From positions 379,501 to 443,500 of the forward strand of contig JAYKKI010000148.1 in the NCBI GenBank assembly GCA_039881145.1: a DNA stretch of 64,000 bases, written 5' to 3'. Position numbers and translations under genes: made by a program. Within the stretch, counting starts at the first letter, position 1; the number at the start of each line of letters is the position of its first letter. This DNA is from Druceiella hillmani (taxonomy: Eukaryota > Arthropoda > Insecta > Lepidoptera > Hepialidae). Below the pieces are notes generated by a model. That model did not search any database. It was not told the origin of the DNA and was given only the letters and a program-made list of their open reading frames with translations. Below, one piece after another: positions 25,858-62,220 of the stretch.

Positions 25858-27179
25858 CGAGGCGTGTTTTTAAAGTACCGTTTTGACATAAAAAACAACA
25901 ATTAATTTTTTTCCAAAAATGATTTATTCACTTGAAAGGCCATACTTTACTCTACTTTTCTACATAATTCCCATTACTATTGAGGCATTTATCGTATCTT
26001 GGGACCAGCTTTTGTATGCCATCGTCAAAGAAGATTGCCGCCTGATTAGACAACCACTGCTTCACAGTCGTTTTCACTTTGTCATCATCGGAATGGCGCT
26101 GCCCCGCCAGATGCTTCTTCAAGTGCATAAACAAATGGTAGTCGCTCGGCGCTAGATCGGGACTGTATGGAGGGTGGTCCAATTGTTCCCAGCCAAAAGA
26201 AGTGATAAGATCTTGTGTTCGATTTGCTGTGTGTGGACGGGCATTATCGTGGAGCAAAACGACACCTGCACTCAGCATGCCACGCCTTTTGTTTTGAATT
26301 GCGCGGCGCAGTTTTTCTAAAGTCGCACAGTACGCTGCTGCATTGATCATGTCGCCGCGAGTCAAAAAATCAACCAGCAACACACCCTTTCTGTCCCAAA
26401 ACACAGTGCACACGATTTTCTGAGTGTGAAATTGTTTGTTTGAATTTCACTTTCCTAGGGGATGATTACTGCCGCCATTCCATTGTTTGCTGCTTCTATT
26501 CCGGTGTAACGTAGGCTACCCATGTTTCATCGCCTGTGACAATATGGCTTAGAAAATTATCCCCCTCTTTACTGTATAGTTCGAGAAAACTCAATGCACT
26601 GCCAAATCTTTTGGTTTTGTGCTCATCAGTCAACATTTTTGGGCACCCAGCGTGAACACAATTTTCGATAATTTAAATGTTCGGACACAATTTCGTAAAG
26701 AACACTTCTGGAGAAAGCAGGAAACTTTTCAGCTAAGGACGAAATCGTGAATCGTCTGTTCTCTTTCACTTTACAGTCCACTTTTTGAATCAGTTCATCG
26801 GTAATGACTGAAGGTCTCCCATTTCGTACCTCATCATGAATATTTGTACGGCCATCTTTAAAGGCCCTAACCCATTTCCGCACCATTCCATCACTCATAA
26901 TGTTTTCACCATACACTTCACTGATTTGGTGATGAATGTCAACTGATTTGAAGCCTTGAGCACAGAAAACCGTATTACAGCACGCACTTTACAGTCGGCG
27001 GGATTTTCAATAGGTGGAGGCATTTTAAAATTACGCAAACAGATGTAGACTCGATCGGATGGTTCCGTAATGGCGTCTGTGGTTTCCCAACAGATGACAC
27101 GACGCGCATGCGTTAAACGGTGACCGCAGCGCTGCGGCGGCGTAATTTAAAAACGGTACTTACTTTAAAAACACGCCTC
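25858..27179 (-). mobile_element. Full-length inactive mariner element
   Basis: Terminal inverted repeats are at 25858-25885 (CGAGGCGTGTTTTTAAAGTA, then CCGTTTT) and 27149-27179, whose reverse complement reads GAGGCGTGTTTTTAAAGTA followed by a 4-base repeat and CCGTTTTT. The left end is preceded by TA, the expected target dinucleotide. On the right the outermost bases read AG instead of TA, so the target site has mutated. The length of about 1.3 kb is normal for mariner. It is inserted about 80 bases upstream of the piggyBac-like remnant, on the same strand. GC content is higher than the surroundings, a sign of more recent arrival. Confidence 0.9.
25952..27023 (-). pseudogene. Mariner transposase (D34D) pseudogene
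   Basis: It starts at ATG 27023 with MPPPIENPADCKVRAVIRF. After a frameshift the frame 26916-26626 gives YGENIMSDGMVRKWVRAFKD and GRPSVITDELI, the two helix-turn-helix regions of the DNA-binding domain. A second shift leads to FLSHIVTGDETWV (first catalytic Asp), then two in-frame stops. A third shift opens 26413-25952 with VFWDRKGVLLVDFL, HDNARPHTA (second Asp) and SPDLAPSDYHLF, where the third Asp lies 34 residues after the second. The end is the family-type CLNSNGNYVEK followed by a stop. All three catalytic Asp codons survive, but three frameshifts and two stops prevent full translation. Confidence 0.93.
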
Positions 27180-33490: not shown

Positions 33491-33737
33491 AGAACGAATG
33501 AAGAACAACTTAATAAAATTAACAGATGAAATCATCTATATTTTAACCGTATGCTTTCCTTTTATGTGTATACTTATAAAAGTATTAATAGCACTTTTAT
33601 ATATTGTAGATTTGTAAACAATGTTAAGATATGTAATGTAAGCGTATGTATGTATACATGTTGATAATAATAATATATGTCACAATTAAATGAAACTACG
33701 TTATGTAGTATTATTTCTACTTCCTTTAATTTCTTTA

Positions 33738-33778
33738 CCATGACTTAGGTTTCGTTGTATTACAACATCTTCAGGTGG
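33738..33778 (-). ncRNA. Hammerhead-like motif, copy 1 left arm
   Basis: Read on the minus strand: stem I CCAC, core CTGAAGA (33774-33768), stem II GTTGT/ACAAC with a 3-nt loop, core GAAA (33753-33750), a short stem III, then GTC and ATGG. Both conserved cores are intact. However, the ATGG strand mismatches CCAC at the cleavage-proximal pair, and stem III (ACC..AGT) has one mismatch. One extra U lies between CTGAAGA and stem II compared with the textbook motif. Confidence 0.55.
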
Positions 33779-33836
33779 GATCTTAGCAAAGATAGATTAG
33801 AATAGATAGATTAGAAAATATATCTTTGCTAATATC

Positions 33837-33878
33837 CCACCTGAAGATGTTGTAATACAACAAAACCTAGGTCGTGGT
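33837..33878 (+). ncRNA. Hammerhead-like motif, copy 1 right arm
   Basis: CCAC, CTGAAGA (33841-33847), stem II GTTGT-aat-ACAAC, then AAAA where GAAA is expected (33862-33865, loss of the invariant G), stem III ACC-ta-GGT, GTC ending at 33873 and GTGG pairing with CCAC. Predicted cleavage would be after C33873. The G-to-A change should abolish activity. Confidence 0.55.
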
Positions 33879-33989
33879 AAAGAAATTAAAGAAAGTAGAA
33901 ATAATACTACATCACGTAGTTTCATTTAATTGTGAATAATGAATTTCTACAAAATTAACGCCAAATATATTCAATAATATATGTGTTAG

Positions 33990-35093
33990 TAATAATATAT
34001 TAGTGTTAATAACAAATAATTTGTCTGCAAACAATTAATTTACCTCTAAAAAATGTATTAGCAAAGACAAAGACGAACAACAAAATATTATGTACAAGTT
34101 GAAACACGCTCAGCGACAAGTACGCAGCGAATTTCAGTGCGGAACTATAAAAGATTTATAAAACCGTGTAAATTTACATAATCTTCTTATTGATACTATG
34201 TTCATAATTTTAAAAATAGGTAGTTGATTTCATATTATATATTTTACTCAATATCATCTGTCTAATGATACATTTCAAACGCTATAATCTCTACGATTAT
34301 AAATTTTGAAGATATGGGCTCTCTAAGAGTGAGATATTTTCAAACAATGTTCGTTCAAAGTGACTAAAACTGGAGGTATATACATGTAAACGTCAAAAAT
34401 TAAGGAATTGAAAAAAATCTTTGTGAGGATGTTTAAAATTTAATATTTATCTCATTTTTTACTAAATATAATCGCATGCGACTTTATCAATGTTCAAAAT
34501 ATTATTAATTTTGAGTTTTATTTTTATTGAAAGACAAAAAATAAATACTTATGTCTTGTAAAATTCACTTATATCTAAATATCTTATTTTATATGTCAAT
34601 AATTAATATAAGAACAAAAATTTATGCTGTCGCAGAGAATAAGGGCATAATTGCCTATACCTCAAATTTGAAAAAGTACATGGACATATTCATTTGAGTC
34701 TGTATTGTCAAGATAAATATTCTTGCATCTGTTCACTTTGGGTATAATATACTATGTACAAGCAATTAGTAGGCCGCTTACTATGGTAAAAAAGAAATGT
34801 CAGAAAATAAGCAAATAGATTAATATGAAACTTATATGGCAACTAATCTTACAAAATAGTTAATATTTGACATTCTTATAGATTTCATACACGTTTTCCT
34901 AGCGGTAATTTTGGTAACAAAAATATTTGAGTATATTTTAAAAATGCTGAAAACATTTTTAAATAACTGGGAAAGGGCCTGTTGAACGTACTAATATTTA
35001 ATTCTCTAGCCTCATATTTATAGGTATTAGATAGACGCAATTTTAAAATCGAACCTAAAACCAAGAAGGCTACTTAGCTATGGCAATTCTCCT
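33990..35093. other. AT-rich spacer, no gene recognised
   Basis: No coding motif or notable repeat could be seen between the foldback copy and the palindrome at 35094. Confidence 0.4.
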
Positions 35094-61937: not shown

Positions 61938-61997
61938 TCTTACAAATGTCCACAATTAAATGAAACTACTTGATGTATTATTATTTCCACTTTCTTT

Positions 61998-62048
61998 AAT
62001 TTCTTTACCACGACCTAGGTTTTGTTGTATTACAACATCTTCAGGTGG
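61998..62048 (-). ncRNA. Hammerhead-like motif, copy 2 left arm
   Basis: On the minus strand: CCAC, CTGAAGA (62044-62038), stem II, AAAA in place of GAAA (62013-62010), stem III ACC-ta-GGT, GTC and GTGG. Stems I and III are intact. The invariant G is lost. Confidence 0.55.
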
Positions 62049-62072
62049 GATATTAGCTGCTTTGCTAATATC

Positions 62073-62114
62073 CCACTTGAAGATGTTGTAATACAACGAA
62101 ACCTAGGTCGTGGT
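62073..62114 (+). ncRNA. Hammerhead-like motif, copy 2 right arm
   Basis: CCAC (62073-62076), then TTGAAGA (62077-62083, the first core base is T instead of C), stem II, GAAA (62098-62101), stem III ACC-ta-GGT and GTC with GTGG at 62110-62113. It differs from the expected core only at the first position. Confidence 0.55.
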
Positions 62115-62220
62115 AAAGAAATTAAAGAAAGTAGAAATAATACTACATCACGTAGTTTCATTTAATTGTGAATAATGAATTTCTACAAAATTAACGCCAA
62201 ATATATTCAATATCTTACAA

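Follow-up and report, generated by a model that had tools for sequence, protein, structure and literature searches.

Foldback copies in the window

A 64,000-nucleotide stretch of the Druceiella hillmani genome (contig JAYKKI010000148.1, positions 379,501 to 443,500; hereafter the window) contains a short foldback, the arms of which carry a motif that resembles a hammerhead ribozyme. The locus raises the question of how such a two-armed structure with a tail on one side is formed, and whether it is an element in its own right. A sequence-only reading had described inverted arms, a tail of about 40 nt and a repeated flank, and all three were found. The foldback (copy 1) lies at 33680-33976. An inverted-repeat search placed its arms at 33680-33798 and 33817-33935 (119 nt, 94% complementary), the tail is on the right side only, and the 12-bp sequence AATAATATATGT stands at both 33669-33680 and 33973-33984. 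The window holds a second foldback, copy 2, at 61946-62212. In both copies, arms of about 105-119 nt enclose a short centre and a tail of about 40 nt follows the right arm only; the target duplication is 12 bp in copy 1 and 8 bp in copy 2. The features are as follows, where L092 is a locus with a Penelope-like element (PLE) described in the next section.

33669..33680, left target-site duplication of copy 1, AATAATATATGT (repeat search and copy comparison)
33680..33793, minus strand, tailless arm of copy 1 (93% match to L092 leader positions 201-314)
33738..33778, minus strand, hammerhead-like motif in the left arm of copy 1 (defective, with mismatched bases in stems I and III)
33794..33821, central filler of copy 1 (AGAT stutters; string absent from the other 40 of 41 copies)
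33822..33935, plus strand, tail-bearing arm of copy 1, sense PLE leader (97% match to L092 leader 201-355, tail included)
33837..33877, plus strand, hammerhead-like motif in the right arm of copy 1 (predicted cut between 33873 and 33874)
33936..33976, plus strand, one-sided tail of copy 1, the start of a PLE frame (ATG at 33939-33941, MNFYKINAKYIQ; same start in L092)
33973..33984, right target-site duplication of copy 1 (repeat search)
61938..61945, left target-site duplication of copy 2, TCTTACAA (copy comparison)
61951..62057, minus strand, tailless arm of copy 2 (alignment to copy 1 / leader)
62060..62213, plus strand, tail-bearing arm and tail of copy 2 (hammerhead core C3 replaced by T)
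62213..62220, right target-site duplication of copy 2 (copy comparison)

In the tailless arm of copy 1, the final ~114 nt of the PLE leader stand in antisense, from the presumed RNA 5' end to a few nucleotides short of the ATG. Elsewhere in the window, two adjacent minus-strand frames (25952-26988) resemble what we take to be a broken mariner-type transposase, and two plus-strand frames (1752-2834) may, we presume, belong to the transposase of a DNA transposon.

The arms are the terminal sequence of a Penelope-like element

From the window alone, we read the tail as the start of a PLE frame, ahead of finding L092. The 2.59-Gb assembly (181 contigs) was then searched with a PLE reverse transcriptase (RT) query. 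The 150 scored matches fell into two families, A and B, and L092 is one of two family-B loci retrieved after this search. L092 has an 810-codon frame, and the foldback arm, including the hammerhead-like motif, lies immediately upstream of it. The frame starts with LRI and then MNFYKINAKYIQYL (also written LRI-MNFYKINAKYIQYLKTADV); the one-sided tail of the foldback corresponds to its first codons, MNFYKINAKYIQ. In a Pfam domain search, the protein matched RVT_1 (E=9.8e-15) and, at residues 700-735, GIY-YIG (E=4.5e-4; 20.9 bits, slightly under the Pfam cut-off of 22.6). The GIY-YIG domain of a homologue, P0013, is above the cut-off, and homologues have the same length as the L092 protein. Thus, the Penelope identity proposed in the sequence-only reading is confirmed: the full-length relative encodes reverse transcriptase and GIY-YIG, and no DNA transposase. 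The foldback arms are Penelope-like terminal sequence, and their autonomous parent, a family-B PLE, is present in the same genome.

Further PLE hallmarks are found in this family, namely a tandem pseudo-LTR (the L092 leader recurs downstream of the frame), an inverted 5' pLTR, a one-sided tail and a short target duplication. In L092, the point at which the foldback arms end is ~31 nt past the first base of a TATAAA sequence, as read by eye. Full-length database relatives of the L092 protein are at most 46% identical and one partial relative is 51% identical over 56% of the length; many come from short contigs and some from Parnassius, Euphydryas and Phthorimaea records. A genome search for GIY-YIG gave 2 matches among the 150 scored of 1572 candidates, and the match L061 is flanked by stretches 82-84% like the family-B leader. 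In viral contigs, none of 83 pattern matches was confirmed as a PLE alignment. The parent family adds a member to a known kind of element, and what is new is the mechanism recorded by its scars.

Foldback copies across the genome

In the first copy search, 40 of 2371 candidates were scored. The set analyzed here comprises 41 foldbacks (39 retrieved loci with flanks and the two window copies); most of these are best matches to copy 1, so that the set is biased to complete arms. A 50-nt pattern spanning the tail end had 15,204 exact matches in the genome (7632 + 7572), long PLE inserts and intact PLE frames being counted along with foldbacks, and the reversed control gave 0 matches. A DNA search with 70 nt including the tail gave 0 matches, probably from the skipping of common words.

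AAAGAT is reached by the left arm in 38 of 41 copies and ATCTTT by the right arm in 37, an end that we infer to be the transcription start. Between the arms, all 41 copies have distinct strings. The fillers hold AGAT stutters or fragments of the neighbouring RNA 5' end, in one orientation or the other, and the longest piece copied from an arm averages 9.9 nt, as compared with 6.1 nt in shuffles. Target duplications of at least 10 bp were found in 28 of 40 foldbacks (L026 was left out) and in 8 of 1560 mismatched flank pairs. A single tail is plain in 39 of 41 foldbacks; in L026 it comes after an internal jump and L038 is without a tail.

We also compared sequence variants between the two arms of 38 foldbacks. 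Two variant sites were always shared (in 2 and 3 inserts), and a third was shared in 6 and discordant in 5. This concordance is compatible with one or with two RNA templates.

Long inserts have the same one-tailed plan

Of 22 pairs of family-B RT matches less than 6 kb apart, 19 are head to head, 3 are tandem and none is tail to tail. We examined 13 long inserts, namely L093 and 12 of the 19 head-to-head pairs. In eleven of them, one end is tailed and the other bare, and the target is duplicated over 8-13 bp. For C14 and C38b, the duplicated stretch reaches only 8 nt and is AT-rich or imperfect; in addition, C38b has its bare end at +9. C61 has no recognisable left end within the stretch retrieved. 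C68 (L126-L128) is tailed at both ends, and its target shows no clear duplication. These four cases stand against the explanation that we prefer below. Five of the eleven carry their tail on the longer arm (C37, C3b, C7, C125 and L093) and six on the shorter arm (C98, C3a, C14, C38b, C1a and C34; the start of the tailed arm of C1a was taken from its RT match). The arms of L093 have 0 differences over 1356 positions, and the arms of C3a and C3b share private variants.

Family A gave the same picture. Eighteen inserts have both ends visible (15 within one locus and 3 spanning two) and were scored by end positions, the target duplication being read for L068/L069 only. Seventeen have one tail (+29 to +39 from the ATG) and one bare end (-4 to +9), and none of the 18 has two tails. 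The exception, L074, has one tail and its other end at -32, and is likewise a case against the preferred explanation. With the 3 pairs and L074 left out, the RT-bearing arm is tailed in 6 of 14 inserts and untailed in 8. If each strand chose its site at random with equal odds, 17 one-tailed inserts of 17 would have a probability of 8e-6. Therefore, the tail asymmetry seems to be built into the reaction.

L068/L069 (G000 C67, ~5,359,000-5,365,000) is a head-to-head family-A PLE inside a family-B foldback. Its 12-bp duplication, TTAAAGAAAGTA, was read by eye.

Probable priming of two cDNAs at one target

We consider it probable that each foldback is one short insertion of the family-B PLE, in which both ends of the target primed reverse transcription of PLE RNA and the two cDNAs were joined end to end. 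The PLE RNA would start ~31 nt after the leader TATAAA at a presumed capped start, ATCTTTGC, pass through the hammerhead-like motif and enter the frame. The target would be cut with a stagger, giving a duplication of mostly 10-15 bp, and the 3' end of each strand at the cut would prime on PLE RNA. One strand would start ~36-42 nt inside the frame, yielding the tail, and the other just before the ATG, yielding none; the two start sites would be ~40 nt apart. Both cDNAs may extend to the RNA 5' end or halt earlier, and their 3' ends may then be joined head to head through microhomology or a filler copied nearby. If a read-through tandem RNA is primed close to its 3' end, long PLE inserts would result; priming close to the 5' end would give the ~290-bp foldback.

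Four features that bear on this scheme can be read directly from the inserts: their parent, a single tail in nearly all of them, a tail side independent of arm length, and differing centres. That both arms are RNA-templated, and the mode of end-joining, we infer. Six of the 11 long inserts carry their tail on the shorter arm. The second arm is therefore not just the first arm copied, and at least part of the inserts need two RNA-templated cDNAs. Because the arms of one insert mostly share variants, the two templates would usually come from one source locus, or one molecule would be used twice. Two RNA-templated cDNAs agree with experiments in vitro, in which a PLE protein cleaved and extended both target strands from internal start sites and the tail was the stretch between the two start sites (PMC11167929, in the results given there). 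That each strand keeps strictly to one start site is not accounted for by independent choice, a point against this explanation.

The strongest competing explanation is that a single target-primed cDNA folds back and copies itself into the second arm, halting before the tail. Arkhipova et al. (2013) read head-to-head PLE repeats in a related way, as self-priming on an antisense template, in the discussion of PMC3846280, and the source-specific variants common to both arms of one insert (L093, C3a and C3b) fit it. However, a self-copy cannot exceed the tailed cDNA, and the tailless arm is the longer one not only in the six long inserts but also in the incidental foldbacks L024b, L041b and L089b (the long arm of L089b has its outer end outside the locus), as well as in 2 of 7 unselected foldbacks, L145 and L150. 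Among other unselected foldbacks, L033b and L146 carry the tail on their longer arm, and the arms are about equal in L144, L147, L148 and L149. If instead the tailless cDNA were the one copied, no tail could result. Moreover, the extra RNA-to-RNA jump in L026 lands at the tail start site. We thus regard self-copying as an improbable general explanation; for inserts other than those with the tail on the shorter arm, it is possible.

A second alternative is that the foldbacks form a genuine non-autonomous family, SINE-like or MITE-like, which replicates its own RNA or DNA. The 15,204 exact tail-end matches (long inserts and full frames also counted), the uniformity of arms between copies, and the equal gap length of 17 of 33 junctions near leader position 221 (compared by length, not by letters) could be so explained. 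In their centres, L038 and L051 are identical but for one base in 45, so some copies may have been amplified. However, a SINE lineage would not be expected to have 41 different centres between like arms, the arm ends are variable in unselected copies, and long inserts of two PLE families have the same one-tailed plan. The sequence-only reading had favoured a reduced non-autonomous element. If a propagating derivative is meant, this is not borne out, given the differing centres, the end of most arms at the presumed RNA 5' end and the plan shared by most long PLE inserts. A propagating non-autonomous element is unlikely, somewhat more so than self-copying; the foldbacks appear to be short insertions of the PLE, each made separately. 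Finally, a DNA-transposon foldback would have the long terminal inverted repeats seen here, but it can be set aside almost entirely, since the tail is one-sided, the duplication varies from 8 to 17 bp and the parent encodes reverse transcriptase and GIY-YIG.

Insertion by priming from both target ends bears on a matter left undecided in the parts of the literature consulted, namely PLE second-strand synthesis and the origin of inverted one-tailed copies. The authors of the 2013 paper prefer self-priming on an antisense template and state that they cannot decide (PMC3846280, discussion), and the 2024 in vitro paper calls the later steps "yet to be validated experimentally" (PMC11167929). In the open-access literature searched, we found no earlier proposal of two-ended priming for PLEs. 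The 15,204 tail ends suffice for a statistical choice between self-copying and two-ended priming; they could also place the RNA 5' end and probe hammerhead cutting in vivo.

The hammerhead-like motif in the arms

Each arm contains, in order, CCAC, CTGAAGA, a 4-bp stem-loop, GAAA, ACCTAGGT, C and GTGG. The arrangement is that of a type I hammerhead whose stem III is tiny and in which A9 is followed by an additional U. The order and pairing given in the sequence-only reading hold in the family consensus, where the CTGANGA and GAAA cores and the CCAC/GTGG pairing are kept; the clean 5-bp stem II given there does not, the stem being 4 bp with an extra U before it. PLEs have been described as bearing minimal hammerheads without helix III (PMC6155905, in the parts consulted), and an extra core nucleotide is reported for a viroid hammerhead in a title of its reference list.

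The core string CTGAAGATGTTGTAATACAAC occurs four times in the window at ≤3 mismatches, as compared with 0 in 100 shuffles. The consensus motif is intact despite defects in all four window arms: two have G12 replaced by A, one has C3 replaced by T and one has mismatches in stems I and III. The right-arm motif of copy 1, in which G12 is replaced by A, is presumably dead. We then used a strict descriptor (core CUGANGA...GAAA...H and three helices, one extra nucleotide being allowed after A9). It found no intact motif in the window or in 100 shuffled windows, 44 among the 82 arms of the 41 copies, and 50 in 131 loci minus L001-L020, which are duplicates of L021-L059 or of window places.

The Rfam hammerhead type I model had been suggested as a check. 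No Rfam hammerhead model matched at E≤10 in window positions 33600-34000 or in 10 of the 39 copy loci, and a scan of the whole window at gathering scores gave 0 matches. Matches to microRNA families at the foldback were below gathering scores and due to the long hairpin, and were rejected. The arm fold predicted by ViennaRNA differs from a hammerhead (-9.9 kcal/mol, z -1.23); a hammerhead with a 2-nt loop is unscorable by this program. CTGANGA..GAAA was not seen in the family-A loci inspected, and the exact core string had 0 occurrences in viral contigs. In L068b (L068 around 411-442) and L049b, pieces of the hammerhead region are missing between short repeats, as if the RT had skipped the hairpin.

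Arm ends at the predicted hammerhead cut

If the motif cleaves the RNA template, some arms should end at the predicted cut, before leader position 253. In unselected stretches, 36 arm records were obtained, and 11 inner ends are at the presumed transcription start (199-204). Five more, from 4 inserts, are at 252-256. For 5 ends at the cut among the 25 remaining records, which contain a spurious match of 15 nt at 450 as well as starts within the frame, the chance under a uniform model is 0.008. For example, L133 starts exactly at GTGG, and both arms of L148 end at the predicted cut. The best-matching copies run through the hammerhead, whereas some unselected copies stop at it.

Across the genome, 50 junctions have both arms ending within 8 nt of the cut (reversed-pattern background 0), as compared with 23 (background 2) at a control position 5 nt downstream and 33 (background 0) at one 32 nt upstream. 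With fillers of ≤4 nt, the numbers are 32 at the cut, 6 downstream and 21 upstream, and 17 of these 21 share one gap length, which may reflect a recurrent microhomology join or an amplified copy. The excess at the cut is thus modest in number. Letters could be read in 37 of the 50 cut junctions; in 33 of these, both arms stop at the exact cut nucleotide, with 29 distinct fillers (this reading covers cut junctions only, the controls being counted by position). A stop exactly 3' of the scissile bond, with the 3' strand of stem I copied, fits cleavage better than pausing at a stem, but the numbers are only suggestive. We lean slightly towards ribozyme cleavage in vivo. In experiments with an anole PLE, mutating the ribozyme left insertion in vitro unaffected, and none of the reads ended at the cut (PMC11167929), which argues against a needed role for cleavage.

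In the cut junctions, the filler begins with T in 21 of 37 and ends with A in 22 of 37; cDNA ends often carrying an extra T would possibly reflect non-templated addition at an uncapped RNA end. Near leader position 221, the gap is exactly 2 in 17 of the 33 junctions and 7 in 8, and these equal gaps may be recurrent microhomology joins or small amplified lineages.

Taking these results together, we favour, with some reserve, the view that PLEs insert by obligately two-ended priming with an inner start on one strand and an outer start on the other, that the thousands of foldbacks record this reaction, and that the subset stopped at the hammerhead records template cleavage in vivo.

Comparison with known systems

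In LINE-1 twin priming, two primers are used per target, the junction has microhomology and internal inversions arise occasionally. The inserts described here would be similar in the two primers at one target and in the junction microhomology. In contrast to LINE-1, a head-to-head, one-tailed arrangement seems to be the norm here.

The foldbacks also resemble metazoan retrozymes (PMC7229834), which are ~300 nt long, very numerous, carry a type I hammerhead and are thought to depend on PLEs. Retrozymes, which are non-LTR, are direct tandem repeats that give circular RNA (PMC7229834), whereas the arms here are inverted and the centres differ; direct tandem repeats of the retrozyme type were not found in the copies examined.

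The nearest kin are GIY-YIG PLEs, as far as the parts consulted of these papers go: Penelope of Adineta vaga (PMC3846280) and PAc of Anolis (PMC11167929). The motif of PAc overlaps the start of the frame (PMC11167929), whereas here it lies ~60-100 nt upstream of the ATG. Unlike in those PLEs, the short two-armed products are extremely numerous here, and their arms end at the presumed transcription start and, in some copies, at the predicted ribozyme cut.
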